From Portibacter lacus (GTDB lineage: Bacteria; Bacteroidota; Bacteroidia; Chitinophagales; Saprospiraceae): a stretch of 64,000 nt of DNA. Both the position numbers and the translations under genes were made by a program. The notes under the pieces are model-generated. The model saw only the letters and a program-made list of their open reading frames with translations, was not told the DNA's origin and searched no databases. Below, piece after piece: positions 30,625-49,085 of this stretch. The stretch is from positions 27,676-91,675 of the forward strand of contig NZ_JAJNKA010000021.1 in NCBI RefSeq assembly GCF_021533215.1. Direction: 5' to 3'. Numbering within the stretch: position 1 is the first letter of the stretch; every line of letters begins with the position of its first letter.

Positions 30625-32139
30625 ATGGAAGAACTAATATCACTTATCGACTTATTAAGTAAGCAAAAACTTCATCAGATTGAGGTTGTTGATGAGCTAG
30701 ATGATTCTGAAAACCTGCTCTCTAAGTTATACAATGAAATCAATAATGGAAAAATAACAGATGAAAAATCTGCAACAATCTCACTTTATGGGTCTCTAGA
30801 ACACATTAGCAGACTTAAAAAACTAAAAAATCGATTATACAACAAGCTCATCAATTCTATTTTCTTTATAGATCAGTCTAACTCTTTATACAGTGATTCT
30901 CTTACCGCTGCTAAGAACGCATTTAAAAATTATTCTGCCATTAGACTTTTAATAGGAAGTAGAAAAAGAGGGGTTGCGATTGATCTTGCACATAAAACTT
31001 TCAAGGTTTCAAAAAAGTATGGCTTTACAGATCTAAATTATTTACTAACCTCAATTCTCACTGACCACTATGTAGCCATTGCCTTTGATAAAACAAAATA
31101 CAAGAAATATAAAAAGTTCAAAAATTACTACTTAAAAGCAATGATTGCCGAAAATGACATTCAAGAATTACAAGCTATTTTCAATATGGACTTATCTAAA
31201 AGTAGCTCCGGACTAAATGAAAAAGAATTGCATGAACATGCCGAAAACATAAAGACTATAAGGAAGACTCAAAAAGAAATCCATACTTATCGATATAATC
31301 TTTACGCTTACTTGTATCAAATCAATTTTTTTCTTGAAACCAGAAAGTATACGGAATTAATTACCTTGGCTGACGAAGCTTTACATTTTTTTAAAAAACA
31401 AGGTATTAACTCCATGGATGCGGAATTAATGATAAAAATCCGTGCTGGCCTTGCTTACTTTATGTTGAAAGATTATAAAAGTGCTGAGAATAATTTCATT
31501 ACGCTTAATAAAATTTCTCGACCTTATACCACTAACTGGCACTCTACCTATAATTACCTAAGCTCTTTATATATAAATACAGAACGATATCATGACACTT
31601 ATGACATCCTTTCCATTGTTTTTAATTCACCTAACTTCGAAAAAGCGCATCCCATACTCGTGCAACTCTTTAAGATTAAAGAAGCCTACTTCCATTTTTT
31701 GATAGAACTTGGAAAAATAGACCCCTCTAAATCCAAAGAAAAGCCCTTAAGGAAATTCAGACTGGGCAGGTTTCTAAATGAAACTCCTATTTTCTCGAAA
31801 GATAAGCGTGGTGTTAATATTTCCATCCTTATCATCCAGATGATCCTTCTTGTTCAGAATAAAAAACATGGCGAAATCATAGACAAGCTAGATGCCTTGA
31901 ACATGTATAGTCACCGATACTTAAGAAGCGACAATACTTTTCGTTCGAATTGCTTCATTAAAATGTTAGCAAAACTTCCTGATGCCGACTATCACCCCAT
32001 CCGATGGGAGCGATATGTGAAAAAGTATCGACAACGACTCGAAGAACATCCTTTCGAACTTTCTTACCATAACATTGACCTAGAAGTAATCCCTTTCGAA
32101 ACTTTGTATGAGCTGGTCTTAGAGATGCTGAAGAAATAA
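30625..32139 (+). CDS. TPR-like repeat protein, paralogue 1
   Basis: 504 residues, all helical in character, with no signal peptide or membrane segment, so cytoplasmic. The first ~77 residues (LIDLLSKQKLHQIEVVDELD ... SLEHISRLKKLKNRLYNKLI) look like a small N-terminal helical domain, possibly winged-helix-like. From residue ~78 on there are TPR-like helix pairs (YTELITLADEALHFFKKQGI, GLAYFMLKDYKSAENNFITL, TYNYLSSLYINTERYHDTYD). From residue ~78 it is about 93% identical to the protein at 32841, but the N-terminal parts differ strongly. The plan of a short head plus a TPR body recalls RRNPP-type peptide-sensing regulators, but direct homology is not shown. No function assigned. Confidence 0.75.
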   Translation: MEELISLIDLLSKQKLHQIEVVDELDDSENLLSKLYNEINNGKITDEKSATISLYGSLEHISRLKKLKNRLYNKLINSIFFIDQSNSLYSDSLTAAKNAFKNYSAIRLLIGSRKRGVAIDLAHKTFKVSKKYGFTDLNYLLTSILTDHYVAIAFDKTKYKKYKKFKNYYLKAMIAENDIQELQAIFNMDLSKSSSGLNEKELHEHAENIKTIRKTQKEIHTYRYNLYAYLYQINFFLETRKYTELITLADEALHFFKKQGINSMDAELMIKIRAGLAYFMLKDYKSAENNFITLNKISRPYTTNWHSTYNYLSSLYINTERYHDTYDILSIVFNSPNFEKAHPILVQLFKIKEAYFHFLIELGKIDPSKSKEKPLRKFRLGRFLNETPIFSKDKRGVNISILIIQMILLVQNKKHGEIIDKLDALNMYSHRYLRSDNTFRSNCFIKMLAKLPDADYHPIRWERYVKKYRQRLEEHPFELSYHNIDLEVIPFETLYELVLEMLKK

Positions 32140-32234: not shown

Positions 32235-32430
32235 TGAATGAAAAAAATATCGACAACGACTCGAAGAACATCCTTTCGAACTTTCTTACCCCAACATTGA
32301 CCTAGATGTAATCCCTTTCGAAACTTTGTATGAGCTGGTCTTACTTTGTATGAGCTGGTCTTAGAGATGCTGAAGAAATAAGGGGAAACCACTGATGGTC
32401 TCACCTCAAGCTGAGGCTATCAATGTGGTG
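32235..32430 (+). pseudogene. Duplicated 3' end of TPR gene plus its repeat tail
   Basis: From about 32240 the sequence repeats the last ~35 codons of the TPR gene (AAAAATATCGACAACGACTC onward), with a 20-base internal stutter (ACTTTGTATGAGCTGGTCTT occurs twice), then the stop and a second copy of the family B palindrome (32386-32430). There is no start codon. This is a tandem partial duplication left by recombination. Confidence 0.8.
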
Positions 32431-32589
32431 TCAATTTGAATTCTTCTTATAAAGGAGATACTTACTAAATAATCCAATTATAAAAAGAATATAAATTAAT
32501 ACCCTAAAAACTATATCCTCACTTACAATGGATACTCTTATTACAATACAAATTGCAACAATTAAAAACAAGATATCTATTAATTTCAT
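32431..32589 (-). CDS. Small two-segment membrane protein (52 aa)
   Basis: ATG 32589 to TGA 32431. There are two hydrophobic segments (IDILFLIVAICIVIRVSI, about 4-21, and VFRVLIYILFIIGLFSKYLL, about 28-47) and a basic tail (YKKNSN). Directly upstream on the same strand is a reading-frame remnant ending in a Gly/Ala-rich tail (32592-32645). The same order of Gly/Ala-rich tail then tiny membrane protein occurs at 34.8 kb and 36.0 kb. The pattern is typical of a peptide toxin or bacteriocin followed by its immunity protein, but no family is recognised and the role is inference. Confidence 0.55.
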   Translation of the reverse strand: MKLIDILFLIVAICIVIRVSIVSEDIVFRVLIYILFIIGLFSKYLLYKKNSN

Positions 32590-32591
32590 TT

Positions 32592-32645
32592 CATATGTTT
32601 TTTAACCAGCTGCACATCCAACTGCTCCAAATCCAACAATAACTG
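32592..32645 (-). pseudogene. Remnant with Gly/Ala-rich hydrophobic tail
   Basis: The frame ends RAGAVIVGFGAVGCAAG and stops about seven bases before the small membrane gene. Two stop codons lie just upstream, so only the tail survives. Another frame over the same bases gives GNKKELGQLLLDLEQL ..., which could equally be the real one. Which frame was functional is undecided. Confidence 0.3.
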
Positions 32646-32679
32646 CCCCAGCTCTTTTTTATTACCTTTTCTCAAATTT

Positions 32680-32840
32680 TATTATAAATCCGAACTGATT
32701 TATTACAAATACAAGCCGCTTTTCGCATAAAACAAATAACAAACTACGTATTTTACCGCCATAGCTATTAATATAATAATTAAATATATAATTTACATAC
32801 TTCTATTAATCATAACGTTATAATATTACAATCATAATAA
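32680..32840 (+). promoter_or_regulatory. Conserved leader upstream of TPR gene 2
   Basis: Parts of this leader recur upstream of the decayed copies at about 36940-37080 and 45150-45297. Shared blocks are CTGATTTAT.TACAAATA, ACCGCCATAG.TATT and CTTCTATTAATCATAA.GTT, the last continuing as TATAATATTA.AATCATAATAAATG. Conservation of a non-coding leader among decayed genes suggests shared transcriptional or translational control. Confidence 0.55.
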
Positions 32841-34358
32841 ATGTTAGACACAATCATTTCATTAGCCGATTTAATTACAAAACAAAAGCTTTATAAAGTT
32901 GAAATTATAGATGAAGTAAAAAATCCAACAACAAAAATTGGGAGGTTCTATCAAAATGTATCCAATGGTACTTTTAAAACTGAAGAGCAAGCAGCAGAAT
33001 CATTAGGGTATTCAGGACCAACCGACAAAAATTACAATAATTTAAAAAGTGACCTTTTTAATCGAATGGTTAACTCAGTTTTCTTTATCGACCAATCGAG
33101 TTCTTTATATAGTGATTCCTTAACTGCTGCTAAAAATGCATTTAAAAATTATTCTGCCATTAGACTTTTAATAGGAAGTAGAAAAAGAGATATTGCTATT
33201 GATTTAGCTCATAAAACGATCAAGGTTTCTAAAAAATATGGTTTCACAGATCTAAATTATCTATTAGCATCGATCCTTACCGATCACTATGCAGCTATAG
33301 CCTTTGATAAATCAAAATACAATAAATATAAAAAATTCAAAAATTACTACTTGAAAGCAATGATTGCCGAAAATGACATTCGAGAACTTAAAGCCATCTT
33401 TGACATGGAATTATCTAAAAGTGGTACTGGATTAAATGAAAAAAAATTGCATGAACATGCCGAAAACATAAATACTATAAGGAAGACTCAAAAAGAAATC
33501 CATACTTATCGATACAATCTTTTCGCTTACTTGTATCAAATCAATTTTTTTCTTGAAACCAGAAAATATACGGAATTAATTACCTTGGCAGACGAAGCTT
33601 TACATTTTTTTAAAAAACAAGGTATTAACTCCATGGATGCGGAATTTATGATAAAAATCCGTGCTGGCCTTGCTTACTTTATGTTGAAAGATTATAAAAG
33701 TGCTGAGAATTATTTTATAATGCTTAATAAAATTTCTCGACCCAATACAACCAATTGGTATTCTACTTATAACTACCTAAGCTCATTATACATTAATACA
33801 GAACGATATCTTGACACTTATGACATCCTTACCATTGTTTTTAATTCACCTAACTTCGAAAAAGCGCATCCCATAATTGTGCAACTCTTTAAGATTAAAG
33901 AAGCCTACTTCCATTTTTTGATAGAACTTGGAAAAATAGACCCCTCTAAATCCAAAGAAAAGCCCTTAAGGAAATTCAGACTGGGTAGGTTTCTAAATGA
34001 AACCCCTATTTTCTCGAAAGATAAGCGTGGTGTTAATATTTCCATCCTTATCATCCAGATGATCCTTCTTGTTCAGAATAAAAAATATGGCGAAATCATA
34101 GACAAGCTAGATGCCTTGAACATGTATAGTCACCGATACTTAAGAAGCGACAATACTTTTCGTTCGAATTGCTTCATTAAAATGTTAGCAAAACTTCCTG
34201 ATGCCGACTATCACCCCATCCGATGGGAGCGGTATGTGAAAAAATATCGACAACGACTAGAAGAACATCCCTTCGAACTTTCCTACCACAACATTGACTT
34301 AGAAGTAATCCCTTTCGAAACACTGTATGATCTGGTTATCGAAATGCTGGAGAAGTGA
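32841..34358 (+). CDS. TPR-like repeat protein, paralogue 2
   Basis: 505 residues, soluble and helical. The body (residue ~78 to the end) is about 93% identical to the protein at 30625, with many stretches identical at the DNA level too, including the last ~150 codons. The head is different: ITKQKLYKVEIIDEVKNPTT, then TEEQAAESLGYSGPTDKNYN, which reads like a helix-turn-helix-type fold. The decayed copies at 38.9 and 45.3 kb carry the same head type. The gene is followed after ten bases by a short family B palindrome. Function unknown. A DNA- or partner-binding head joined to a TPR sensor body is my inference. Confidence 0.75.
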   Translation: MLDTIISLADLITKQKLYKVEIIDEVKNPTTKIGRFYQNVSNGTFKTEEQAAESLGYSGPTDKNYNNLKSDLFNRMVNSVFFIDQSSSLYSDSLTAAKNAFKNYSAIRLLIGSRKRDIAIDLAHKTIKVSKKYGFTDLNYLLASILTDHYAAIAFDKSKYNKYKKFKNYYLKAMIAENDIRELKAIFDMELSKSGTGLNEKKLHEHAENINTIRKTQKEIHTYRYNLFAYLYQINFFLETRKYTELITLADEALHFFKKQGINSMDAEFMIKIRAGLAYFMLKDYKSAENYFIMLNKISRPNTTNWYSTYNYLSSLYINTERYLDTYDILTIVFNSPNFEKAHPIIVQLFKIKEAYFHFLIELGKIDPSKSKEKPLRKFRLGRFLNETPIFSKDKRGVNISILIIQMILLVQNKKYGEIIDKLDALNMYSHRYLRSDNTFRSNCFIKMLAKLPDADYHPIRWERYVKKYRQRLEEHPFELSYHNIDLEVIPFETLYDLVIEMLEK

Positions 34359-34692
34359 GGGGGGACCAAAAACCACTTGATGGTCTCAAATGTGGTTTTC
34401 TGGTTGAAGAAAGTTGATGAAAGGGTTGATAATAGAGGTTGATGCGAAAACCGCTGCAAGGAGTTTGTAACTCAGCGTTGTGTTCCTCGGTTTAACCGCT
34501 ATAAGGAGTTGGTAACTCCTTTTTGAGTCTCATATATTATTGCATTAGATCTTCGAAACGGAGTTCGGAAACTCCGCTCGAATCAAAACAAGGGAGGTCT
34601 AAAGAATATGAGCATTAGTAATAAATCATTTCAATAAACATAATATGCAGGGAGCCATTCCATTTGGATGACACCCTGCCTCTTAAATCTTA
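34359..34692. repeat. Cluster of short palindromes (family B copy and family C hairpins)
   Basis: About 330 bases without a gene. A short family B palindrome (34368-34400) is followed by three hairpins with the core GGAGTT-3 nt-AACTCC (about 34458-34475, 34506-34524 and 34560-34575). The last is followed by GCTCGAAT. A fourth copy of this family, also with GCTCGAAT, is at about 34899-34921. This dense REP-like clustering suggests mobile or recombinogenic elements. Confidence 0.65.
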
Positions 34693-34818
34693 TTATCTAT
34701 CTGGGAATACCTTTTTAAAAATATACTTCCCTATCCAAAAGAATAAAAGAACTCCAAGAATAATAAAAATTCGAGATATTAAAAATTCCAAAGACATAAT
34801 AGTTAATTGTAGAATCAT
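34693..34818 (-). CDS. Small single-segment membrane protein (41 aa)
   Basis: ATG 34818 to TAA 34693. One strong hydrophobic segment (RIFIILGVLLFFWIGKYIF) is followed by a basic tail (KKVFPDR). The ATG at 34797 (MSLEFLISR) is an alternative start. It follows by about ten bases a broken frame ending in an Ala/Gly-rich tail. It is the second example in this island of the tail-then-small-membrane-protein order. An opposite-strand frame over the same bases is treated as a shadow. Confidence 0.5.
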   Translation of the reverse strand: MILQLTIMSLEFLISRIFIILGVLLFFWIGKYIFKKVFPDR

Positions 34819-34827
34819 AATTTTTTA

Positions 34828-34957
34828 TTATAAACCAATTGATGCTGTGAGTGCTCCAGTTGCAGCATCATAAAGAACTTCACTTCCTGTAAACTGTGAG
34901 GAGTTTGCAACTCCGCTCGAATTATATATTAAAGCATCAATACTTTAAAATACCCAT
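34828..34957 (-). pseudogene. Broken small peptide gene, apparently interrupted by a family C hairpin
   Basis: An ATG at 34957 gives MGILKY and then a stop. The family C hairpin (GCGGAGTTGCAAACTCC) follows, and after it a clean frame resumes as FTGSEVLYDAATGALTASIG-L and ends at 34828. The simplest reading is a peptide gene with an Ala/Gly-rich tail split by a hairpin element. No homologue recognised. Confidence 0.35.
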
Positions 34958-34971
34958 TTGTTTCAATTTAT

Positions 34972-35544
34972 TTATTGCCTACAGAATTTATTTTTAAAAG
35001 CATGATTTAAGTTAACTGTAACTCCTATGTCAAGAGATTGCTTCAATATTTTAAACTGGTTTTCACTTAAATTATGATTCCAAAGTTCTCTAGAAGATCT
35101 AAAAAATAGACCATAAGAAGCACATTCGGTAAACTTTAGATCATACTTGAGTTGAAAGATTATACCTGTTCGACTCCCTTTTTGAGAAGAAATTGGCTGA
35201 TCAGCGTAGAATGATTGAATTACACCAAATCCATACTTTAACTAATTATTTGGTGATAACTGCGATGTTTGTATACCGCTAAAAAGCAGCCCATATTCTG
35301 TAAGAAAATTGACAGGCGTAGAATTGTCAAAAACCCTGTATTCTGTATCAGTAATAAGTAAATCGAAAGAATACTTCTTTAATCTATATCCTAATTCAAA
35401 ACTTAAAGTGCTTTCCAGTGGAATATTTGTTTTATAATTTTCAACACTCTGGATTGAGGTAAAGCTGAACTGCGAACTGGTATAGAATTGCCCAAAGATT
35501 GTTAAATTTGAAAAAACAAATAAAAAACTAATAATATATTTCAT
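34972..35544 (-). pseudogene. Outer-membrane barrel-like gene with one in-frame amber stop
   Basis: ATG 35544 opens on a signal peptide (MKYIISFLFVFSNLTIFGQ) and runs 100 codons to a TAG at 35242-35244. The same frame then continues without a break for about 90 more codons (LKYGFGVIQSFYADQPISSQ ... HAFKNKFCRQ) to TAA at 34972. Alternating beta-strand patterns on both sides suggest one small beta-barrel protein of about 190 residues with a single nonsense change. It lies between two peptide/membrane-protein sets on the same strand. Possibly still expressed by readthrough, but more likely a recent pseudogene. Confidence 0.65.
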
Positions 35545-35557
35545 GATCAACTTTTTA

Positions 35558-35583
35558 AAAGAGGTGCATATAAAATGCACCTC
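35558..35583. terminator. Hairpin between the peptide remnant and the barrel pseudogene
   Basis: A perfect 9-bp stem (GAGGTGCAT, 35561-35569, with ATGCACCTC, 35575-35583) and a 5-base loop. T-runs lie on either side, so it can act on both strands. On the minus strand it ends the transcript from 36.7 kb. Confidence 0.7.
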
Positions 35584-35591
35584 CTACTTTT

Positions 35592-35782
35592 TTAAACATT
35601 ACATTGATTACCACAAAATCTTCTTATTCTTGAAAGAAGAAATGCACCACCAACTGCGATTACACAAGCGATGAAGGCAGGTCTTGCAACAACAACTCTA
35701 TTATCATTCTAAAATGCTCAATTTAAATTGCCATATAGTCCATTAGCCAAGAAAGCATCAATTAATTTTGATTTACTACATT
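35592..35782 (-). pseudogene. Decayed bacteriocin-like small peptide gene
   Basis: The frame reads SKSKLIDAFLANGLYGN, then two stops, then RVVVARPAFIACVIAVGGAF and RIRRFCGNQCNV before TAA. An ATG at the expected start is out of frame by one base. The hydrophobic middle, GG pair, basic patch and terminal Cys pair resemble small membrane-active peptides. No family recognised, and the gene is clearly broken as it stands. Confidence 0.35.
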
Positions 35783-35986
35783 TTACTCTTTCTTCTTTTT
35801 TGATTTGTTTATCGTCATAATAGAAATTATAACTCCTCCAATTTGGAAAAGTACAAATGACAAAATCACAAGAAGATAGACATATTTGCTACTATAATGA
35901 TTTGAACTCTTGAAAAGAAAATAAGCATGATACACCACAAACATAATTAATCCACTCAAAACTGACTTTAATGATATATACTTCAT
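35783..35986 (-). CDS. Small membrane protein (67 aa), candidate immunity protein
   Basis: ATG 35986 lies three bases after the stop of the upstream lipoprotein gene, so the two are almost certainly translated together. The longer frame from 36151 only shadows that gene and is rejected. Two hydrophobic segments (about 9-27, SVLSGLIMFVVYHAYFLF, and about 35-58, YVYLLVILSFVLFQIGGVII) are followed by a highly basic tail (NKSKKKKE). It is the best-preserved example of the Gly-rich-tail/small-membrane-protein pair in this island. An immunity role is inferred from layout only. Confidence 0.6.
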   Translation of the reverse strand: MKYISLKSVLSGLIMFVVYHAYFLFKSSNHYSSKYVYLLVILSFVLFQIGGVIISIMTINKSKKKKE

Positions 35987-35988
35987 TT

Positions 35989-36756
35989 CTAACATGTTAT
36001 TGCTCCCCAAATGCTTCCAAGAACTCCACCAACTACTCCCCCAACTAATGCAGCTGGGGCTGCTCCAGTGCAACCAGAGAAAATGCAAGCAGAAATTCCC
36101 CCTCCAACAGCACCTGTAACTATTCCTCCAACTACATTGTCTCTCATACAACTGTTATAAGATCTGTTTGAACTTTCGGAATTAGAACCCTCAAATGAGT
36201 TAACGTAGTCCTGAAATTCAAGACTAGCTTGTAAATAAGACGCTCGCGCAATTGACAATACTTGTCTTAATCCCTCTTTTTCAAAACTTGCATTGTACTT
36301 TACATAAATTGTAAATAATTTTAAATCTACTTCCGATTTAGAAGGCATGCTCAATAAGAAATTAGAAATTTCATTAAATAGGATATTTTGTTGTTCACTC
36401 ATTTGTACTTTCCCACCAGTCCAATATTTAAAATTTTCTTTATTCAAATTCATATGATCTTCTATAAAATTGATAGTACCAGAAACATCTGTCTCCAAAA
36501 TTTGTGATGATTTACTAACTATTACTTCTTGAAACATCGCATCATATACATTATTCTGAGAGTATATTGATGAGTTTATATCTTGTGCTCTAGATATTTG
36601 TTTATCCGTAGCAGAGATAATATTAGCAATTCCAAAATTAAAATCATATTCGATAAAAAAATCTTTAATCGATTCATCAATAGTTTCTTCCTTTTGACAT
36701 GAGACTATCAAAAGCCCAAATCCAAAATACATAAAAAAATAAATAAACTTTTTCAT
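35989..36756 (-). CDS. Lipoprotein with glycine-rich, bacteriocin-like C-terminus
   Basis: 255 residues. The signal peptide ends at a lipobox (LLIVSCQKEE, Cys 20). A helical, non-membrane middle (about 25-205) follows. The last ~48 residues form a Gly/Ala-rich hydrophobic glycine-zipper-like segment (VVGGIVTGAVGGGISACIFS, then GAAPAALVGGVVGGVLGSIW and a terminal GAITC) containing Cys residues. This tail resembles the pore-forming part of some bacteriocins, and the gene is followed at once by a small membrane protein. Lipidation argues for an envelope-anchored precursor or a self-associating membrane protein. No family recognised; the toxin idea is inference. Confidence 0.6.
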   Translation of the reverse strand: MKKFIYFFMYFGFGLLIVSCQKEETIDESIKDFFIEYDFNFGIANIISATDKQISRAQDINSSIYSQNNVYDAMFQEVIVSKSSQILETDVSGTINFIEDHMNLNKENFKYWTGGKVQMSEQQNILFNEISNFLLSMPSKSEVDLKLFTIYVKYNASFEKEGLRQVLSIARASYLQASLEFQDYVNSFEGSNSESSNRSYNSCMRDNVVGGIVTGAVGGGISACIFSGCTGAAPAALVGGVVGGVLGSIWGAITC

Positions 36757-36855: not shown

Positions 36856-36863
36856 TATATTTG
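36856..36863 (+). promoter_or_regulatory. -7 box of hairpin RNA, copy 1
   Basis: TATATTTG, an exact TAnnTTTG match, 16 bases before the hairpin. The same box occurs at the same distance before copy 2 (45020-45027). Confidence 0.6.
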
Positions 36864-36869
36864 CAGTCA

Positions 36870-36923
36870 ACAACGACGGAGTCTGCGTATCCTATTTCGA
36901 TAGGTGATCGTGGGCTCTTTTTT
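36870..36923 (+). ncRNA. Short hairpin RNA or attenuator, copy 1
   Basis: The outer stem is GAGTCTGCG (36879-36887) with CGTGGGCTC (36909-36917). The inner stem is CCTA/TAGG, with a conserved TGAT bulge on the 3' side, followed by six Ts. Copy 2 at 45.05 kb keeps the shape with paired base changes. It originally stood upstream of a TPR gene copy whose remains lie at 37109-37266. It could be a stand-alone small RNA or a leader attenuator. Confidence 0.6.
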
Positions 36924-37108: not shown

Positions 37109-37266
37109 ATTTCCAAGGATAAACGAGGTATGAATATTTATTTCCTTACTGTCCCTAACAACGACTCGAAGAACATCCCTTCGAGCTCTCCTACCACAAC
37201 ATAGATCTAGAAGTTATTCCTTTCGAAGCGTTGTATGAGCTGGTTTTAGAGATGCTTGAAAAGTAA
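37109..37266 (+). pseudogene. TPR gene fragment (two pieces of the 3' half fused)
   Basis: It begins with codons matching SKDKRGVNI of the TPR genes (here ISKDKRGMNIYFLT), then jumps to the last ~35 codons (QQRLEEHPFELSYHNIDLEV in the intact genes) and ends at TAA 37266. Upstream (about 36940-37080) the TPR leader is still visible. It is a large internal deletion derivative. Confidence 0.75.
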
Positions 37267-37531: not shown

Positions 37532-38068
37532 CTAATATTCAAATATTAACATATCTCCATATTCTGTCCAAGAATAGAACTGATCTGGAAGCTTAACAAT
37601 TGTTGAATTTAACCCATCTAACTTAATACAAAACTGCAACCTTCCTTCCTTATTCTTTGAAATGTGCTTTCTAATATATTCATCTATTTCTGCATCGAAT
37701 GGATCTATGCTGACATCTTCTTGAAGAATATGTCGATAGACACCATAAAGAGCACAATGGAACTTGTGTTCCATAATCTGAGTATAATTGCACATTGCTG
37801 CGTACTGCTGAAAGAAATCATAGGTACTTTTATATCTACTTTCTTTAATTTTTAACCGCGTAACCACTTCATTTTTAAAATCTTCACTTTGTTGCTTCCC
37901 ATCACTTCCGTTAAGAAAAGATTCATACCATAGACTTGCAATTTCTATGGCATGAATCCTGGTAATACTATCTTCCGTAGAAAATGAATTATCACAAAAA
38001 TATTCAGCAAAATCTAATAATGCAATTCTTTCAAGAAAACTCTTTATTGTATATTCTATTGATTTCAT
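37532..38068 (-). CDS. Hypothetical soluble protein beside an immunity-like gene
   Basis: 178 residues, no signal peptide or membrane segment. N-terminal FLERIALLDFAEYFCD, middle HAIEIASLWYESFLNG, and an acidic C-terminus (LPDQFYSWTEYGDMLIFEY). The ATG is one base after the stop of the gene at 38070, so the pair is co-translated. No family recognised. The pairing with an Imm11-like protein suggests an immunity or toxin-related role, which is inference. Confidence 0.6.
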   Translation of the reverse strand: MKSIEYTIKSFLERIALLDFAEYFCDNSFSTEDSITRIHAIEIASLWYESFLNGSDGKQQSEDFKNEVVTRLKIKESRYKSTYDFFQQYAAMCNYTQIMEHKFHCALYGVYRHILQEDVSIDPFDAEIDEYIRKHISKNKEGRLQFCIKLDGLNSTIVKLPDQFYSWTEYGDMLIFEY

Positions 38069-38069
38069 C

Positions 38070-38780
38070 TTAAGCGTATTCTAGCCAAGGAATTTCTTCA
38101 AATCTTATGCCTGTAATTCCACTTTCTTCTATATCCTTCTTCACAAGTTCATTACAATACCTTCCCGACATTTCTAAAATTGGAATATCAAAGATATCAT
38201 AAGCTTTCTCCTTTCGAATGAATATTTTTCTTGCTCTTAAATTTTGTCCTGATTCTAAGTTTAGAATACCGTTCTCATTCAGAATTGAAATATCTTTCAA
38301 ATCTTCCAGTGTAGCACCTTTCACATTAATATCAATTTCCAAGTCGCCCTTGTTGTGGTCAATAATGTAAAACCTTGATTCTGACAAGTTAAGATCACTC
38401 CGATTTTTAAATTTATGAAAAGGAAAAACAAGTACGTGGCAGTCTAGACAAACACTTGGTTCATAATGAGTTGTAATCAATTTTGCTAAATAATGTTGAT
38501 GCTCGCTAAAATTAAAACTACTAAAGATTTTGTAACCAAGGTCATCTATAAATATTGTAGATCCACCAATTAGTCCTTCACTCATAACGTTTGTAAGTTT
38601 CGAGCTTTTTTCTAATTGAAAGTAATTAAGATTTGGTGTAACTTGATTTTGTCTAAAGTGCCAAACAGAATCGGGTTTATTATAGTCATAACCTTTTACC
38701 ATAGTAGCAATTTGTGGATAATTCTTTCCCACTATTTTAGAATCAAACTCATTCAGTATTTTATAAAACATGCTTTCCAA
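38070..38780 (-). CDS. Imm11/DUF1629-like protein, candidate immunity protein
   Basis: 236 residues, soluble. The C-terminal third matches the Imm11 pattern I know: ARKIFIRKEKAYDIFDIPIL, then a receptor-like helix region (CNELVKKDIEESGITGIRFE) and a final EIPWLEY. Imm11 proteins neutralise toxins of polymorphic or contact-dependent systems. No cognate toxin gene is adjacent, so it may be an orphan immunity gene. The protein at 43947 shows the same ending pattern. Confidence 0.55.
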   Translation of the reverse strand: MESMFYKILNEFDSKIVGKNYPQIATMVKGYDYNKPDSVWHFRQNQVTPNLNYFQLEKSSKLTNVMSEGLIGGSTIFIDDLGYKIFSSFNFSEHQHYLAKLITTHYEPSVCLDCHVLVFPFHKFKNRSDLNLSESRFYIIDHNKGDLEIDINVKGATLEDLKDISILNENGILNLESGQNLRARKIFIRKEKAYDIFDIPILEMSGRYCNELVKKDIEESGITGIRFEEIPWLEYA

Positions 38781-38885
38781 TTAATAAACAATAAAAGTAA
38801 TTTTGTCCAATGTTTTTCCAGATTTTAACTGATCTTTCACATTATCTAACATTTTCTTAAAATTATTTAAAGCGGTTTCAGGAGA

Positions 38886-39219
38886 TGTATAAAGTCGAAA
38901 TTAATTAATGAAGTAAAGATCCAACAACAAAAATTGGGAAGTTCTATCAAAATGTAGCAAATGGCACATGTAAAACTGAAGACCTAGCAGCTGAATCATT
39001 AGGTTACTCAGGACCATCCGATGCTTTCCGTTCGAATTGCTTTATTAAAATGCTAGCGAAACTTCCTGATGCTAATTACCACCCTGTCCGCTGGGAACGT
39101 TGTGTGAAAAAATATAGAAAACGACTAGAAGAACACCCCTTCGAACTTTCTTACCCAACATTGACCTAGAAGTAATCCCTTTCGAAACCTTGTATGACCT
39201 AGTCTTAGATATGCTTTAG
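38886..39219 (+). pseudogene. TPR pseudogene (5'-truncated, internal deletion, stop codons)
   Basis: Head codons corresponding to YKVEI are followed by in-frame TAATGA. After the codons for AAESLGYSGPSD, about 390 codons are missing and the sequence resumes at AFRSNCFIKMLAKLPDA, running to a TAG at 39217. It is cut at its 5' end by unrelated sequence. Same deletion as in the copy at 45298. Confidence 0.85.
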
Positions 39220-39319
39220 AAATAAGGGGAAACCACTGTTGGTCTCACCTCAAGCTGAGGCTATCAATGTGGTTTTCGGGTTGATGAAAGTATATTGATA
39301 ATAAAGGTTGATGTGAATG

Positions 39320-39441
39320 AAAAAAAATATCGACAACGACTAGAAGAGTATCCTTTCGAACTTTCTTACCCCAACATTGACCTAGAAGTAATTCCATTCG
39401 AAACCTTGTATGACCTAATCTTAGAAATGCTTGAAAAGTAA
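39320..39441 (+). pseudogene. Second TPR gene tail fragment
   Basis: It repeats the last ~38 TPR codons (KYRQRLEE-like to EMLEK) without a start, ending at TAA 39441. It parallels the tail duplications at 32.24 kb and 45.78 kb. Confidence 0.75.
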
Positions 39442-39522
39442 GGGAAGTGATAGATATTTCTTAGGGTTAATACTCAAAGTTCTAATATCAATTTAACAAA
39501 CTAGTTGTAGTGCTCATAGGAC

Positions 39523-39766
39523 CTCGTACTTTAGTGAAAGATTTTCCTTAACCTTTCTCGGGTTAAAACCCGAGCTCCTTTGGATACTCTGATTTAATTG
39601 TTTAACTACTTTTTTTTAAAAATTTTCAACTGATAAATAAAGCAGACTCCCTATCCCCAACTATCAATCTAGCCTTACCTCCTAGACCTCGTACTTCAGG
39701 TCGAGATTTCTTCAGCAACAAAAATAAAAGGATATTCCTCAAATGAATTGACTATTCCTGGAGAGC
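39523..39766. repeat. Family A palindromes and RAYT gene fragment
   Basis: Contents: CTCGTACTT-type hairpins at 39523-39540 (degenerate) and 39688-39705, and CTCGGGTTAAAACCCGAG at 39557-39574. About 60 bases (39706-39766) equal the 3' end of the RAYT gene at 46159, with substitutions, and then stop abruptly. Confidence 0.7.
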
Positions 39767-39792: not shown

Positions 39793-40638
39793 TTATAGTT
39801 TAATGTTTAATTCATATTCATAAATAGCATAAAACACTCCTTCTCCATTAATGATATTCCCCTTTGTAATTATTGGGCTTGAAACAATTTGTTCAAATTC
39901 GCTAGGTTGGTTATTAATAGAGCGGTAATAGATTCTAGCTTCTGGGCTAATAAGCCCAATAAAATATAATATTTCGTCACTGTTTCCATTTGAAATTGTT
40001 CTTTCTTGAAACTCAACTACATTTCCAATGAAACAATCTTTATTATAAACAGATAAGTTCTTGTATGAGAATCGTGTTGTCTGACAGTTTTCAATATTCG
40101 GATTACTTGTTGGTAAATATTTAAAGTTAAGTGGGTTTGCTCCCAAATCAAAACCAAAGGAAAAATCTGACATGTCTTCATTAGAATGTGTCAGTGATAA
40201 ATCAACAACAATGGTATCGTTAAAAATTTGATAAGTAGTGTCAATTTTTTTAAACGGTTTGGGAATATCAACCCAAGCAGTTGTTGCGGTCGGGTAATTA
40301 TCATGACTAATTTCTAGTCTATAACTTTCAGTAATATCAAGTACAATAGGCGAAGAAGAACTATACTTTCCATTTTGAGATTCAATTAAAGAGTCAACTT
40401 TTATGTTATTAGAATTGTAAAGTAATATCCTAGCATTAGAAATCCCATAACTACTAAAGTCCTTAAACTTTGTGCCAACTGGATAAGTACTCGTTAAATA
40501 AACTTTTACACCTTTCTGAGCGGAAATAAATGACTCAACAACTAGTTCTGGTTCTTTTTCAGGAATATCCAAATCATAAATCTTTCCGCAACTTATAAGT
40601 AAAATAATGATTGATAATAATTTAAAACTTTGTTTCAT
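39793..40638 (-). CDS. DUF4249 lipoprotein
   Basis: 281 residues, with lipoprotein signal MKQSFKLLSIIILLISCGKI (Cys 17). The DUF4249 pattern is present: YDLDIPEKEPELVVESFISA, an early Ig-like part with LTSTYPVGTKF, and YRLEISHDNYPTATTAWVDI. The domain usually sits next to a TonB-dependent receptor, as here, and is thought to be the surface partner that helps bind cargo. It overlaps the receptor gene by 17 bases. Cargo unknown. Confidence 0.85.
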   Translation of the reverse strand: MKQSFKLLSIIILLISCGKIYDLDIPEKEPELVVESFISAQKGVKVYLTSTYPVGTKFKDFSSYGISNARILLYNSNNIKVDSLIESQNGKYSSSSPIVLDITESYRLEISHDNYPTATTAWVDIPKPFKKIDTTYQIFNDTIVVDLSLTHSNEDMSDFSFGFDLGANPLNFKYLPTSNPNIENCQTTRFSYKNLSVYNKDCFIGNVVEFQERTISNGNSDEILYFIGLISPEARIYYRSINNQPSEFEQIVSSPIITKGNIINGEGVFYAIYEYELNIKL

Positions 40639-42940
40639 ATGATATGCTGGGTATTAAAATAAAATTAGATTGACCATATATTACAGACTGGGATTCTACC
40701 GGTTTAGATACACCGTTTTCATTTCTAAACGTACCAATAAAAGTGTATTCGTAAAACATTGGGTTCTGATATGCATAGAGATTATAAATGCCAAACTTCC
40801 ATTTAACTTCTCTTTTTTTCTTTTTGTATTTATATATTATTGCAATATCAGCTCTATTATAATCACGAGTTTTAACACCATTCCATTCATCTATTATAGC
40901 AGTTGGATATCCGTTTTGATCTATATATGATGTATTAGGAAGCGTAATATAATGGCCTGAAGAGTATATAAAATTAATGTTCAGGTTTAGCTTTTCTTTA
41001 AGAATATAATTAAAGTTTAATTGCAAATCATGTTTTCTAGAAAATGCTGAATTAAAAGCTTTGCCTTCATTAAAACCTGGAAACACCCTTGTATTATATA
41101 GAAAAGTGTAAGAAAAAGAATATTGAAACCTGGTTTTTTCTTGTCGAAGAAAAAATTCAAAACCATAAACTTTACCGACGCCATCTTTAATGAGGTTGTC
41201 AACAAAAGAAGAATTAGCAAGATAAAGGTCATAAAAATCTGGAAGGTATAGGATTTGATTTTTTAAACTTCGGAAAAATAGATCACCATTTAGACTAAGA
41301 TTGTGTTTCTTGAAATTTTTGAAATAACCTATTGCATATTGATCTGAAAGTTGAGGACTAATTTCTAGACTTGGGATAAATATATCACTTGGAACACCAC
41401 CATTATTGCCAGATAATAAATGTTCAAACTGAGAAGCCTTATCATATGTGAAAGAAAATTTGTGAGATTTATTATAATACTGAATTTTAAGTCTTGGAGA
41501 ATAGTATAATTTTGTTTCAGATGGGACATTGTAGTTGTCAACCCTAGCACCAATATTTGCAGTAAAGTTACTGGGCAGCGCTATATTCATGTCGACATAA
41601 TATCCTTGTTGATAGAAAGTTGAGGAGTTTTTTTTTGAAAGGGTTTTGCTTGTATCGGCAAAATTAATTTTGGTATCTATTTCAAATGGAGAATACCTTG
41701 GATTAGTAATGTTAAAACCATATTCTATTTTCAAATTGTTGTTGGGTCGAAATTCTGCTTTAAGATTTATTTCATATTCAACAATCTTAGATAAGTTTTT
41801 AAATTCACCAATATCGATCCCTGATAAAGTGCTATTTCGCAATTGGTACAAGTATTGATTTCGCAATATATTAAAATTTACAAAATGGTTTTTAGATACA
41901 TGGTTCGTATACCGTATATTCATTAGTTCGCTTCCCCAGTTTACAGCGCTTTCATATGAGTATTCGTTGGAGGATCTGTCACGTAATGAAAAATTATCAT
42001 CCCCTTGAAAATACGATAGACTGACAGATTGCTTTTTTCCGATTTTGAATTTTACTTTACCATTAATATCGTAGAAAAAATAATTTCTATAACTATTGTT
42101 TTTTCCAATATTATATCTAATCAAACTAGGTAATGTAAATGCACTAAGATAAAATACTCGTCCTGCAAAAACGTAAGTAGCATTAAGATTTTTTATAGGA
42201 CCATGAGTAGATATTCCGGATTCTAATATACCCGCAGTAATTTTCGTTTCTTGTTTTTTTGAATTTCCATCTATTGTATTTATACTCAAAATTGATGAGA
42301 CCCTACTTCCATATTGTGCTGGAAAACCAGACTTATACAAATCTACAGACTTTACCACATTGGGGTTAAACACTGAACTAAATCCATATAAGTGAGAATT
42401 GTTATAAACTTTATTTTCATCGAGTAGAATTAGGTTTTGACCTGGACCGCCACCGCGAATAAATAATCCAGATGTACCTTCTACTCCTGATTGTATACCA
42501 GGATATAAAGCAAGTGATTTCATTATATCTGTACTACCAAATAATTGTGGTAGCTTTTCGGCAATACTGATAGGCATGGAAATTTTTCCGCTAACTTCTT
42601 GTTTCTGTCTGATTATAGGAGCTTGAATAAAGATGCTGTCTAAGTAATTTTCAGCTTCTAATAAAAAATGTAATGTTGAATTAATTTCTAAGGTATCTTG
42701 TTTAAAACCGATATAACTTGCTAATAGATATGTGCAAGTGTCAGGAACATTAATCTGGAACGCACCAAATTCATTCGAACTTGTATGATACCTAAAATCA
42801 GGTGTGTATATTGAAGCTCCAATAAGTTTTTCAGTAGACTTCAAATCTGAAACATCACCGACAATAGAAATCAATGATTGTGCAGTAACTATTGTGCTTA
42901 GTGTTATTCCCAATAATATAAAAAGTACTTTCCTTACCAT
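40622..42940 (-). CDS. TonB-dependent receptor with carboxypeptidase-like N-terminal domain
   Basis: 772 residues. Signal peptide about 1-20 (ending TIVTAQS). A CarboxypepD_reg-like domain spans about 25-95. The plug is at about 110-215 (SLALYPGIQSGVEGTSGLFI, then RGGGPGQNLILLDENKVYNN). The rest is a 22-strand-type barrel ending in aromatic ISYETKF. It imports a bulky substrate across the outer membrane using TonB energy. Together with the DUF4249 lipoprotein it makes an uptake pair. The genes around are accessory, so this pair may have moved in as a unit. Confidence 0.92.
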   Translation of the reverse strand: MVRKVLFILLGITLSTIVTAQSLISIVGDVSDLKSTEKLIGASIYTPDFRYHTSSNEFGAFQINVPDTCTYLLASYIGFKQDTLEINSTLHFLLEAENYLDSIFIQAPIIRQKQEVSGKISMPISIAEKLPQLFGSTDIMKSLALYPGIQSGVEGTSGLFIRGGGPGQNLILLDENKVYNNSHLYGFSSVFNPNVVKSVDLYKSGFPAQYGSRVSSILSINTIDGNSKKQETKITAGILESGISTHGPIKNLNATYVFAGRVFYLSAFTLPSLIRYNIGKNNSYRNYFFYDINGKVKFKIGKKQSVSLSYFQGDDNFSLRDRSSNEYSYESAVNWGSELMNIRYTNHVSKNHFVNFNILRNQYLYQLRNSTLSGIDIGEFKNLSKIVEYEINLKAEFRPNNNLKIEYGFNITNPRYSPFEIDTKINFADTSKTLSKKNSSTFYQQGYYVDMNIALPSNFTANIGARVDNYNVPSETKLYYSPRLKIQYYNKSHKFSFTYDKASQFEHLLSGNNGGVPSDIFIPSLEISPQLSDQYAIGYFKNFKKHNLSLNGDLFFRSLKNQILYLPDFYDLYLANSSFVDNLIKDGVGKVYGFEFFLRQEKTRFQYSFSYTFLYNTRVFPGFNEGKAFNSAFSRKHDLQLNFNYILKEKLNLNINFIYSSGHYITLPNTSYIDQNGYPTAIIDEWNGVKTRDYNRADIAIIYKYKKKKREVKWKFGIYNLYAYQNPMFYEYTFIGTFRNENGVSKPVESQSVIYGQSNFILIPSISYETKF

Positions 42941-43463: not shown

Positions 43464-43946
43464 ATCAATTTCTTTTTCATAAAAACTGAGCGAATTTGTT
43501 TTAACAATCTTGGATGATAAAGATTTATAATATGCTGCGATAATTCTGGACTATTGATGTCTAATAATTATAAACTTTCTCTCACAAAAGCAGTATAACT
43601 TGGATGATTGGCATGGACACCACCATCATCAAAATTTTTCCTTAATCTCTTTAACGATATTCCGATTTTTGGATGATTCATATGAAAAGGTTAATCATAC
43701 TTATTCGCAGCTTTTTGGATGGTTGGGTGATTCCAAAATTCCCACGGATTTAAATGATGAGCTTCATCATATGTGTCGAGACTGAAATTGGACTTTATTG
43801 CTCACCACCAACCACTCGATAATCATCGGATTATTGAACGAAAATGATCTTCCTGCTTCAAATAGATTTAAAATTAAATAATTGAGTATTCTATTAATTA
43901 AAAAAGTAAGCATCTTTGCAGGAAAACATAATTGCATATTTTTTAT
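43464..43946. other. Non-coding or decayed stretch
   Basis: About 480 bases with no sound gene. The plus strand has several near-repeats of GGATGATT (about 43600-43740) and short frames rich in His/Asp that look like chance or decay. The right end abuts the stop of the gene at 43947. Confidence 0.45.
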
Positions 43947-44618
43947 CTATCTTGGTTTAGACGGCAACCTTACATCACAAAACTCTACTATTGGAATAAA
44001 TTCAATTCCTGAAATATTTATTAATTCCAATTCTTGTTTAACCTTTTCGGAAACAACCATTTTTCTAATAGTTTCAAGAATGAAACAATCACCTGAAATT
44101 TTTTCTTCGAATAGCGATAATTTTCTAAAGCGTATTCTCTGTCTCTTATATTTAGAAACAGCTACTTCATATTCTCTATGCGAATTTACGTTAAGACTTT
44201 GTTCATAAAAACCAATAGCATTAGTTGCTACAACCTCAGAATTTTCAATATTGATTACTTCACTATTAACAATTGGCAAATACGTTATAAAGTACTTTTC
44301 TTTGAATTCACCACAATCCAAATTGACAGAGAAAAATTTGTATAATTCTTTGCTTTTCATGTTAGATTCAAGAAGTTTCTTAAGTCTTTCGCTCACAAGT
44401 CTAAACTTCCATTGCAAAAAGCTACAAGACAACATATCTGTTAGTTGTGCCCGTTTATCAAGTTCGTATTTAAACAACAGGATTGAACTCTCGTTATCGT
44501 CTTCCCATCCATCATTGTAGATTACCAAATTATCTTTGTGTTGTGGCTCAAAAGTCTGTACTTGGGGATACACCCCAACTTCATGTTTTTCTGCACTATT
44601 ATTTATTATATAAAACAT
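43947..44618 (-). CDS. Imm11/DUF1629-like protein
   Basis: 223 residues, soluble. The N-terminus MFYIINNSAEKHEVGVYPQV and the C-terminal FILETIRKMVVSEKVKQELE followed by INISGIEFIPI fit the Imm11 pattern of a late receptor helix ending in a G-I-x-F strand. It shares this ending with the protein at 38070, although overall similarity is low. It is likely an immunity protein without an adjacent toxin. A small lipoprotein gene lies upstream on the same strand. Confidence 0.5.
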   Translation of the reverse strand: MFYIINNSAEKHEVGVYPQVQTFEPQHKDNLVIYNDGWEDDNESSILLFKYELDKRAQLTDMLSCSFLQWKFRLVSERLKKLLESNMKSKELYKFFSVNLDCGEFKEKYFITYLPIVNSEVINIENSEVVATNAIGFYEQSLNVNSHREYEVAVSKYKRQRIRFRKLSLFEEKISGDCFILETIRKMVVSEKVKQELELINISGIEFIPIVEFCDVRLPSKPR

Positions 44619-44660: not shown

Positions 44661-44930
44661 TCAATTGTCGTAAACTATTTCTAAGTAATTAAATTCCTTA
44701 TCTTTCAGAATCATTTCACCAATAATTCTTAGGATAATCTCGTCTTTATTCTCTCTATTATCTACTGAATTTTTATCAATTATATATGGATTTGAGTTGT
44801 ATATATAATCTAAATCATAAAGGCGTAATTCTACTTCTGTTAAATTTTTTTTCTCTTTTTGTAAAAGATCTTTATTACAAGAAATTAAAGCAAATAATAA
44901 TACTGCAATTACAAAATTAAATTTCTTCAT
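44661..44930 (-). CDS. Small lipoprotein (89 aa)
   Basis: The lipoprotein signal MKKFNFVIAVLLFALISCNK has its lipobox Cys at 18. A charged ~70-residue mature part (LTEVELRLYDLDYIYNSNPY) follows, with no recognisable domain. It lies 42 bases upstream of the Imm11-like gene on the same strand and may be co-transcribed with it. Confidence 0.6.
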   Translation of the reverse strand: MKKFNFVIAVLLFALISCNKDLLQKEKKNLTEVELRLYDLDYIYNSNPYIIDKNSVDNRENKDEIILRIIGEMILKDKEFNYLEIVYDN

Positions 44931-45019: not shown

Positions 45020-45027
45020 TATATTTG
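45020..45027 (+). promoter_or_regulatory. -7 box of hairpin RNA, copy 2
   Basis: TATATTTG, followed by GCAG as in copy 1, 18 bases before the hairpin. Confidence 0.6.
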
Positions 45028-45033
45028 CAGCTC

Positions 45034-45093
45034 AATTACCACATGGAGCCTGCATGAACCTTTTAAAAAGGTGATTGTAGGTTCTTCTTTTTT
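45034..45093 (+). ncRNA. Short hairpin RNA or attenuator, copy 2
   Basis: Outer stem GAGCCTGCA (45046-45054) with TGTAGGTTC (45076-45084), inner stem CCTT/AAGG, the same TGAT bulge, and a T-rich end. Compared with copy 1, the pairs U-G, U-G, G-C and A-U have become C-G, U-A, A-U and U-A, while pairing is kept. This covariation supports a real RNA structure. A decayed TPR gene starts about 205 bases downstream. Confidence 0.6.
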
Positions 45094-45297: not shown

Positions 45298-45680
45298 ATG
45301 TTAGGCGCTATCATTTCATTATCCGATTTAATCTCAAAACAGAAGCTGTATAAAGTCGAAATTAATTAATGAAGTAAAGATCCAACAACAAAAATTGGGA
45401 AGTTCTATCAAAATGTAGCAAATGGCACATGTAAAACTGAAGACCTAGCAGCTGAATCATTAGGTTACTCAGGACCATCCGATGCTTTCCGTTCGAATTG
45501 CTTTATTAAAATGCTAGCGAAACTTCCTGATGCTAATTACCACCCTGTCCGCTGGGAACGTTGTGTGAAAAAATATAGAAAACGACTAGAAGAACACCCC
45601 TTCGAACTTTCTTACCCAACATTGACCTAGAAGTAATCCCTTTCGAAACCTTGTATGACCTAGTCTTAGATATGCTTTAG
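45298..45680 (+). pseudogene. TPR pseudogene with intact start, stop codons and internal deletion
   Basis: ATG 45298 gives a head like TPR 2 (MLGAIISLSDLISKQKLYKV), which ends after 23 codons at TAA. The rest is out of frame or deleted exactly as in the 38886 copy. The upstream leader and hairpin RNA are still present, which makes this the most complete 5' region of the family. Confidence 0.85.
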
Positions 45681-46111
45681 AAATAAGGGGAAACCACTGT
45701 TGGTCTCACCTCAAGCTGAGGCTATCAATGTGGTTTTCGGGTTGATGAAAGTATATTGATAATAAAGGTTGATGTGAATGAAAAAAAATATCGACAACGA
45801 CTAGAAGAGTATCCTTTCGAACTTTCTTACCCCAACATTGACCTAGAAGTAATTCCATTCGAAACCTTGTATGACCTAATCTTAGAAATGCTTGAAAAGT
45901 AAGGGAAGTGATAGATATTTCTTAGGGTTAATACTCAAAGTTCTAATATCAATTTAACAAACTAGTTGTAGTGCTCATAGGACCTCGTACTTTAGTGAAA
46001 GATTTTCCTTAACCTTTCTCGGGTTAAAACCCGAGCTCCTTTGGATACTCTGATTTAATTGTTTAACTACTTTTTTTTAAAAATTTTCAACTGATAAATA
46101 AAGCAGACTCC
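45347..46111. repeat. 765-bp direct duplication, copy 2
   Basis: Apparently identical to 38886-39650. This copy has the intact flanks (TPR start on the left, full RAYT gene on the right), so it is probably the source and the 38.9-kb copy the derivative. Confidence 0.9.
45781..45902 (+). pseudogene. TPR gene tail fragment (in duplication copy 2)
   Basis: Same as 39320-39441. It begins at the KKYRQRLEE-like codons and ends at TAA 45902, with no start codon. Confidence 0.75.
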
Positions 46112-46168
46112 ATTTTCATAACTATCAATCTAGTCCTACTTCCATAGGACCTCGTACTTCAGTACGAG
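45984..46168. repeat. Family A palindromes next to the RAYT gene
   Basis: Degenerate CTCGTACTTTAGTGAAAG at 45984-46001, perfect CTCGGGTTAAAACCCGAG at 46018-46035, and perfect CTCGTACTTCAGTACGAG at 46151-46168. The last covers the RAYT stop codon. Confidence 0.8.
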
Positions 46169-46830: not shown

Positions 46831-47044
46831 ACTTATTTTATAAAATAACGATAGGGAATGTTAACAAACTTAGTATGATTATTCTCTTTCTCGGGTTAAA
46901 ACCCGAGCTCCTTTGGATACTCTGAACTTATTGTTTACTACCTTTAAGTAGTATAGGACCTCCTACTTCAGTGCGAGATTTTCCTTAACCTTTCTCGGGT
47001 TAAAACCCGAGCTCCTTTGCGTAATATTGATACAATATGTTTCT
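46831..47044. repeat. Family A palindromes upstream of RAYT
   Basis: CTCGGGTTAAAACCCGAG at 46890-46907 and again at 46994-47011, each followed by CTCCTTTG. Between them is CTCCTACTTCAGTGCGAG (46960-46977). Together with the 3' set they bracket the transposase gene. Confidence 0.8.
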
Positions 47045-48039: not shown

Positions 48040-48069
48040 AATTAGTTGATTAATTGTTTTACGTAATAT

Positions 48070-48960: not shown

Positions 48961-49085
48961 AGCTTCGTTATAATTTGTTGTAATGCAAACATATTGGATG
49001 AATAAATGTTCATATAAGCCATATGAATCGGCTAAAATATTATTTGTTATCGTTTTATAATTATTTTTAAGATAAATTTTAAAGA

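Follow-up and report, generated by a model that had tools for sequence, protein, structure and literature searches.

In a 64,000-nt window of the 6.3-Mb genome of Portibacter lacus (G000:C13:27676-91675; positions below count from the first base of the window), a 255-aa lipoprotein with a Gly/Ala-rich C-terminal tail (35989..36756, minus strand) is followed, 2 nt past its stop codon, by a 67-aa small membrane open reading frame (ORF; 35783..35986, minus strand). We propose, with a probability of about 0.55, that this 36-kb pair encodes a toxin, namely a surface lipoprotein whose glycine-rich tail inserts into membranes, together with a small membrane immunity protein, and that it lies in a decaying island. 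The proposal rests on the lipobox and tail of the one protein, on the adjacency of the small ORF, on a gene order that is the same in relatives, and on broken lipoproteins that stand beside intact partners; it draws further on pairs in one related genome (G234) that diverge between conserved flanks, and on an Imm11 immunity-family gene that lies by a lipoprotein stub and the remnant of an AHH nuclease. Portibacter belongs to the Saprospirales and is placed in the NCBI taxonomy under Haliscomenobacteraceae; 'family' is used here in a wide sense, and many of the related records are named Saprospiraceae. An earlier note on this DNA had interpreted the locus as a set of antibacterial or self-sensing peptides that have immunity partners and that TPR proteins could sense; that interpretation is partly supported by the results below.

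The lipoprotein and small membrane ORF at 36 kb

The 255-aa protein opens with a signal peptide and the lipobox LIVSC, continues with a body of ~180 aa and closes with the Gly/Ala-rich tail. Its mature start, CQKEE, matches the C-X-K-(D/E)2 export signal described in Capnocytophaga (PMC5080379, in the part of that paper drawn on here). Three GxxxGxxxG motifs fall within the last 55 residues, a number that was reached by 68 of 2000 shuffles, and the codon score of the frame beats those of all 40 null ORFs of at least 80 aa. The small ORF also has a 70-aa form, read from an overlapping ATG. The lipoprotein matches no Pfam or NCBIfam family over cut-off, the Gly-zipper Pfam models included, and the Pfam scan finds no nuclease family in it (an AHH-like end, just under cut-off, occurs only in the relative G192, described below). 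Nor do the window's small proteins match any family over cut-off in Pfam, NCBIfam or PADLOC; among the ten proteins run against PADLOC (seven from the window, three from relatives) there were only weak matches, at E 0.018 and 0.021, both to the window lipoprotein. A search for viral relatives of this protein returned five stretches that fit a pattern and no true relative.

The earlier note had described three such pairs of a Gly/Ala-rich tail and a membrane protein, each within 3-10 bases. This is partly confirmed: the three pairs are unlike each other, their spacings are in fact 12, 9 and 2 nt, and only the 36-kb pair (pair 3) is intact. Pair 1 survives as a remnant, in which an 18-codon Gly/Ala-rich tail without a start codon (32605..32658, minus strand; KRAGAVIVGFGAVGCAAG) stops 12 nt ahead of a 52-aa membrane ORF (32431..32589, minus strand; peak hydropathy 2.85), a candidate orphan immunity gene. 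Pair 2 is weak as a pair: its doubtful 38-codon open stretch (34831..34944, minus strand), again startless, is weakly Gly/Ala-rich (6 of the final 18 residues) and ends 9 nt ahead of a 41-aa membrane ORF (34693..34818, minus strand; peak hydropathy 2.43) that is a doubtful orphan immunity gene; the GVANSS part of the stretch lies, by eye, in a short repeat that recurs in intergenic DNA. Another 38-codon hydrophobic open stretch, with no ORF of 30 aa or more listed inside it, is a possible remnant (35595..35708, minus strand).

Chance was gauged in composition-matched Markov sequence (600 kb), scored for ORFs of 40-70 aa with a peak hydropathy of at least 2.3. Seven such ORFs were found, equivalent to 0.027 expected per 2.3 kb, and three are seen in the window (the pair 3 ORF, in its 70-aa form, peaks at 2.63): the three hydrophobic small ORFs exceed chance. 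A tail with at least 50% Gly/Ala in its last 18 residues, no more than 12 nt before an ATG, was found at 0 of 7,639 null ATGs; the pair 1 tail, at 10 of 18, lies above that threshold and the pair 2 stretch below it. Class II bacteriocins are short peptides that have a start and a leader of their own, and neither the pair 3 nor the pair 1 tail is of this build. Because the one forms the end of a lipoprotein and the other lacks a start codon, the free bacteriocin peptides that had been proposed are unsupported.

The pair in related genomes

Most of the profile matches that we read hit the signal peptide alone, and relatives were therefore accepted by reading, on the presence of a lipobox, a body and a glycine-rich tail. 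A class-wide search at E <=1e-4 returned 2 of 295 genomes, one being the window's own and the other having a lipoprotein that lacks this kind of tail. A relaxed search of 199 family genomes yielded 16 at E <=0.1, from which loci L094, L095, L099 and L102 were read and L094 was accepted (L096, L097, L098, L100 and L101 were left unread); from this search came the G183 lipoprotein, with a similar tail. We then searched 398 family genomes with the G183 protein and afterwards with an alignment: ten genomes matched, of which G004, G014, G275 and G392 were rejected on reading, and the alignment matched 68 at E <=0.01, giving 30 kept loci, which included six known members. Among the 24 new loci, 19 were rejected, L127, L128 and L138 were read, and the first two of these were accepted; L143, L150 and the genomes without a locus were left out of inspection. 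The accepted members occupy 8 of the 398 genomes, the window's own included, which is a lower bound because the set was formed by reading and some matches went uninspected. They lie in G183, G204 (two), G382, G199, G067 (two), G234 (on two contigs, one broken) and G321 (broken). A borderline case outside this count is L139 in G077, a lipoprotein of 276 aa that is rich in glycine at its end.

The order of lipoprotein and then small membrane ORF is common to the seven other family genomes, with the lipoprotein broken in G321. A small hydrophobic ORF (65-125 aa, at most 400 nt downstream) accompanies 9 of 9 intact members, versus 1 of 33 other lipoproteins drawn from 80 loci of TPR-like genes. 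The pairing that had been read as antibacterial peptides with immunity partners recurs in the family in an altered form, with lipoproteins in place of the peptides. Two pairs stand in tandem in G067, the final partner running off the contig, and two units lie side by side in G183, where the second lipoprotein breaks after ~51 aa and its 111-aa partner is intact. The G321 lipoprotein is interrupted by a stop and a shift of frame beside an intact 69-aa partner (47% identity with that of G382; pN 0.34, pS nearly saturated at 0.74), and one of the G234 lipoproteins is split over two frames beside an intact 77-aa partner; a broken lipoprotein beside an intact partner is therefore found at three places. 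The two G234 contigs are identical in 77 of 77 upstream bases, and the first 40 aa of their lipoproteins are 95% identical; after this shared start, identity drops to 48% in the N-terminal half and 30% in the C-terminal part, and the partners can be aligned over just 18 residues, while the flanking gene is 79% identical.

Evidence on descent was derived from leave-one-out family profiles, scored against 200 block shuffles per member. Five core members are related beyond such shuffles: G204a at 71.9 bits (best shuffle 21.2), G234 at 62.4 (15.0), G382 at 46.2 (21.0), G183 at 39.5 (30.2) and G204b at 25.4 (18.2). The partners of G183, G204 and G234 likewise show likeness beyond shuffles (five pairs, p 0.003-0.007). 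The mature window lipoprotein, compared with eight members, beats 2,000 block shuffles against G183 (p 0.0005) and G067a (p 0.0015).

A protein search with a nine-row alignment, in which the 7,993 candidates sharing the most words were scored, returned among those candidates G204a (P0122), its close relatives P0123 and P0124, G067b (P0125) and P0126, together with two Gly-zipper proteins at E >2. P0126 is a 327-aa metagenomic protein in which a family-like lipoprotein seems to continue as the last part of a small membrane partner; a deletion may have fused the two. Against PDB sequences the alignment had 12 matches to E 1, including a component of a helical pore-forming toxin (4e-5) and AopB (0.039); we treat the toxin match as a lead only, bearing in mind that glycine-rich composition may drive its score. 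When the relatives were scanned in Pfam, NCBIfam and PADLOC, nothing lay over cut-off except PF21724 (DUF6861) in the G382 tail (31.8 bits, cut-off 28), which we read as a match to a glycine-rich stretch.

The surrounding island and its TPR-like genes

Around the 36-kb pair, the DNA from a TPR-like gene to YceI probably represents a toxin/immunity island in decay. Its extent follows from a genus mate, the MAG Ww117, in which the TPR-like gene is followed by YceI, MerR and a glycosyltransferase (presumably BshA): the same YceI block stands in the window at 47,374-50,225, and so the 15 kb between TPR-like gene 1 and YceI are taken to be the island. In Portibacter marinus, two genes lie between the TPR-like gene and YceI. 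Within the island, at 43.5-44.9 kb, the Imm11 gene (43947..44618, minus strand; PF07791 at 25.5 bits, cut-off 22.1) sits between an 89-aa lipoprotein stub with signal peptide, lipobox and short body (44661..44930, minus strand) and an AHH nuclease remnant with two in-frame stops (43559..43777, minus strand; PF14412, E 0.0025), the core of which is visible. At another place in this genome, ~480 nt separate an AHH match over cut-off from an Imm11 match under cut-off. G192 (L164:429-2902) contains an intact gene for a 587-aa lipoprotein that shares 4 nt with an Imm11 gene; the first 534 residues of the lipoprotein are closed by an AHH-like match (21.2 bits, cut-off 22.3), and the Imm11 is 27% identical to that of the window over 172 residues. 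To judge by sequence, the G192 genes may form a SitA-like module within the family. Given this module and the window's own Imm11, stub and AHH remnant, an island of lipoprotein toxins is the simplest reading. A 236-aa protein (38070..38780, minus strand) bears a weak resemblance to the Imm11 of the window (25% over 239, pairwise E 0.012) and has no Pfam immunity match; directly downstream, the ORF list has a 178-aa protein with no Pfam or NCBIfam family (37532..38068, minus strand). In a Pfam scan of 15 island ORFs (41-772 aa, TPR-like gene 1 among them; the remainder of the genome was not searched), there was no type I secretion transporter.

The TPR-like genes look like bystanders. Two full copies are present (TPR-like gene 1, 30625..32139; TPR-like gene 2, 32841..34358; both plus strand), along with an extra copy of the TPR 3' end (32239..32343), a further 3'-end remnant (37126..37263, i.e. 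C13:64801-64938), pieces of the N- and C-terminal parts (38876..39438) and other remnant pieces (45298..45899), all on the plus strand. The pairs are thus interleaved with TPR-like genes, as the earlier note had it; its 'tail to tail' arrangement applies to one side only, since pairs 1 and 3 stand head to head with the TPR sequence to their right. Every TPR copy or remnant to the right of gene 1 is placed head to head with a minus-strand gene of the island, and TPR 3' ends recur; these repeats may therefore have served recombination. Genes 1 and 2 differ by dN 0.107 and dS 0.423. Their aligned proteins match at 45 of the first 100 residues versus 373 of the next 400, a contrast that gene conversion or exchange of the N-terminal part could leave.

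These proteins match no Pfam TPR model; a protein search limited to 7,999 candidates places the window's two among at least 224. The structure model of gene 2 is a confident alpha-solenoid (pLDDT 85.9) that is weakly like many TPR folds in the PDB, the Rap and AimR peptide receptors among many others, with no match at E <=0.001. In the 80 TPR loci, family profiles found 0 members among 774 ORFs of at least 150 aa (best decoy 13.5 bits), a strict scan for Gly/Ala tails gave one 28-aa chance frame, and a second TPR gene occurs in 4 loci. Conversely, 0 of 10 toxin-candidate loci (nine of the family and one AHH locus, 3.5-15 kb each) have a TPR gene, and the two genus mates carry one TPR-like gene each. 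A tblastn of the lipoprotein and Imm11 against the TPR loci also found nothing, a result too weak to count because the same lipoprotein query missed accepted relatives. A role for the TPR proteins as sensors of the peptides was considered and is rejected on the lack of pairing in either set of loci and on the single copies, near YceI and MerR, in the genus mates. Of the conserved pairing that might have been expected in relatives, that of lipoprotein and membrane protein was found and that of TPR and peptide was absent from the loci examined.

Other features of the island include a 100-aa open frame from an ATG that by eye resembles the start of an outer-membrane protein and continues past its stop (35242..35544, minus strand; no Pfam or NCBIfam family), a TonB-dependent receptor with a DUF4249 lipoprotein (39793-42940), and a Y1_Tnp gene (IS200-like, taken for a RAYT; 46159-46830) with palindromic REP-like repeats nearby (39516-39582, 45977-46043, 46953-47019). 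A strong hairpin with a T-run follows what we take to be a Bacteroidota-like -7 box in two copies (36858-36914 and 45022-45081, plus strand). These are the only matches to the pattern in the genome and both lie just upstream of TPR remnants; by eye, their stems differ by paired changes, and they could be short RNAs or attenuators.

Weighing the readings and known systems

If the 36-kb pair does encode a toxin and its immunity protein, we hypothesize that the lipoprotein would be flipped to the cell surface by way of its CQKEE export signal and would reach a neighbour's membrane on contact, where the glycine-rich tail might insert and depolarise or permeabilise that membrane; the small protein, in the inner membrane of the producer, would block the tail. 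The 52-aa and 41-aa ORFs would then be orphan immunity genes left after toxin loss, and the TPR copies passive repeats aiding recombination of cassettes.

A number of results weigh against this reading. Among the 12 lipoprotein starts that were checked, the export signal occurs in its exact form just once. A global protein search with the window lipoprotein found only itself among 1,532 candidates, tblastn at 1e-3 found none of the accepted loci, and the structure model (pLDDT 39.8) was not used. Its profile score, 14.4 bits, is below that of the best block shuffle (23.7) and therefore does not establish membership by profile; the test likewise fails for G199, G067a and G067b, and the G234 score is partly owed to P0126, which has a nearly identical signal peptide. 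Once the tail is removed, the body of the window lipoprotein is at chance level for 7 of the 8 members compared (G234, p 0.02), so the pairwise signal sits in the tail. The window's three small ORFs share no demonstrable homology with the partners in relatives or with one another (best p 0.037), and because their codon usage is indistinguishable from that of null ORFs (p 0.70, 0.25, 0.30), coding is not proven by it. The neighbour criterion initially gave 6 of 9 members versus 1 of 26 and was extended to all ATG starts once three members had failed, overlapping longer frames having hidden three partners. The two G234 contigs may be two strains within one assembly and not two loci, and the AHH remnant scores 20.2 bits, under the cut-off of 22.3. 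The link from window to family is therefore weak: it appears to consist of architecture and tail, with descent not proven.

The most serious competitor, though an unlikely one, is that the protein is an ordinary structural glycine-zipper lipoprotein of the outer membrane, of the OmpA or Rick_17kDa kinds, with the small ORF as its partner or chaperone. Such a protein would agree with the Gly-zipper Pfam and NCBIfam matches of G199 (under cut-off), with the presence of L138, a glycine-rich OmpA-like lipoprotein, among the profile matches, and with homology that is uneven among members; it sits poorly with a distribution as rare and patchy as that given above, with the divergence of the G234 C-terminal part and partner between conserved flanks, with the repeated loss of the lipoprotein beside a preserved partner, and with Imm11 and an AHH remnant as neighbours. 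Somewhat less probable again is a locus of mere island debris, composed of TPR fragments, RAYT/REP repeats, chance hydrophobic ORFs in AT-rich DNA and an orphan lipoprotein of unrelated function. The many remnants and repeats would suit it, as would the small-ORF codon usage, which is not gene-like, and a lipoprotein that lacks relatives in the protein search and fails the profile test. On the other hand, three hydrophobic small ORFs are seen against 0.027 expected by chance, the lipoprotein has a codon score above every null ORF of 80 aa or more, and Imm11 is over cut-off.

The interpretation from which the work started, in which immunity partners accompany short bacteriocins of class II type or peptides for self-sensing and TPR proteins act as the sensors, we now regard as very improbable. 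Short Gly/Ala-rich frames do precede membrane ORFs, and the solenoid does bear a weak likeness to Rap and AimR, one shared with many TPR folds; yet the tails are a startless stretch and a lipoprotein end, the TPR gene and the toxin candidates do not co-occur in the two sets of relatives' loci examined, the TPR gene is single-copy in both genus mates, and no PDB match for the solenoid reaches E <=0.001. We therefore retain the toxin and immunity reading. More tentatively, and at somewhat less than even odds, it may be extended to a new family in this family of the Saprospirales: polymorphic surface-lipoprotein toxins that would kill neighbours through membrane insertion of a cysteine-flanked glycine-zipper hairpin, each with a tiny multipass immunity protein of its own, some with other payloads (AHH nuclease), as a Bacteroidota counterpart of SitA, the window being a graveyard island with orphan immunity genes.

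Should this hold, lipoprotein toxins, whose killing has been characterised for SitA of myxobacteria (through cell contact) and for BcpT of gut Bacteroidales, would also act in a large environmental group, there with a payload that inserts into membranes and with very small immunity genes overlooked by annotation. The pair would then be a concrete, testable two-gene system, and it supplies a rule for finding more: a lipoprotein with a Gly-rich tail, then a small hydrophobic ORF, polymorphic between conserved flanks.

The pair, for which killing and immunity are inferred, resembles SitA/SitI, BcpT/BcpI and Cdz; the comparisons hold for the parts of the cited papers on which they draw. SitA proteins are myxobacterial lipoprotein toxins that have their immunity gene downstream and occur as many divergent alleles (PMC5562445, PMC8546572). 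Shared with them are the lipoprotein signal (LIVSC here) and the position of the small ORF, our candidate immunity gene, and the AHH nuclease ends of the SitA4, SitA5 and SitA6 alleles have a counterpart in the AHH-like end of G192; the main tail here, unlike SitA, is glycine-rich and hydrophobic with no nuclease, and the partner is a predicted membrane protein. BcpT/BcpI of Phocaeicola (PMC9308784) is likewise from Bacteroidota and combines a probable surface lipoprotein toxin with a very small immunity gene directly downstream, but BcpT is a 499-aa, protease-activated, plasmid-borne protein, and BcpI is a 57-aa lipoprotein whereas the partner here is predicted to be transmembrane. Fab1/RFab1 of Bacteroides fragilis (PMC8406203) offers an antibacterial protein with an immunity gene directly downstream, and orphan rfab1 genes; Fab1 differs in being secreted and activated by fragipain, has no known domain and is not described there as a lipoprotein. 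A 'fulvocin C-related' label had no match in the open-access literature searched and was dropped.

The glycine-rich payload may be compared with Cdz of Caulobacter (PMC5380434), in which CdzI, a small transmembrane protein mainly of the inner membrane, gives immunity against the glycine-zipper surface killers CdzC/D; these are two proteins of 86 and 84 aa that are type I secreted and not described in that account as lipoproteins. TelE (PMC10434224) needs a C-terminal glycine zipper for toxicity, damages membranes and occurs in diverse variants, but is an effector of a Gram-positive T7SS, and its partner TipE has no transmembrane domain. With the polymorphic toxin and polyimmunity loci that contain Imm11/Imm43 and Tox-AHH (PMC3482391), the island shares an Imm11 beside an AHH remnant and clustered immunity-like genes; it differs from them in that only one gene here is over a curated immunity cut-off, and a glycine-rich lipoprotein of this kind is not described in the part of that paper drawn on. 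A Gly-rich payload with a membrane partner in Saprospirales was not found in the open-access literature searched, at the level of titles and abstract beginnings, nor in the outline of a paper on TANFOR toxins (PMC7073777). Lipoprotein toxins with small immunity genes being already known, what appears new is this combination of payload and partner in Saprospirales.

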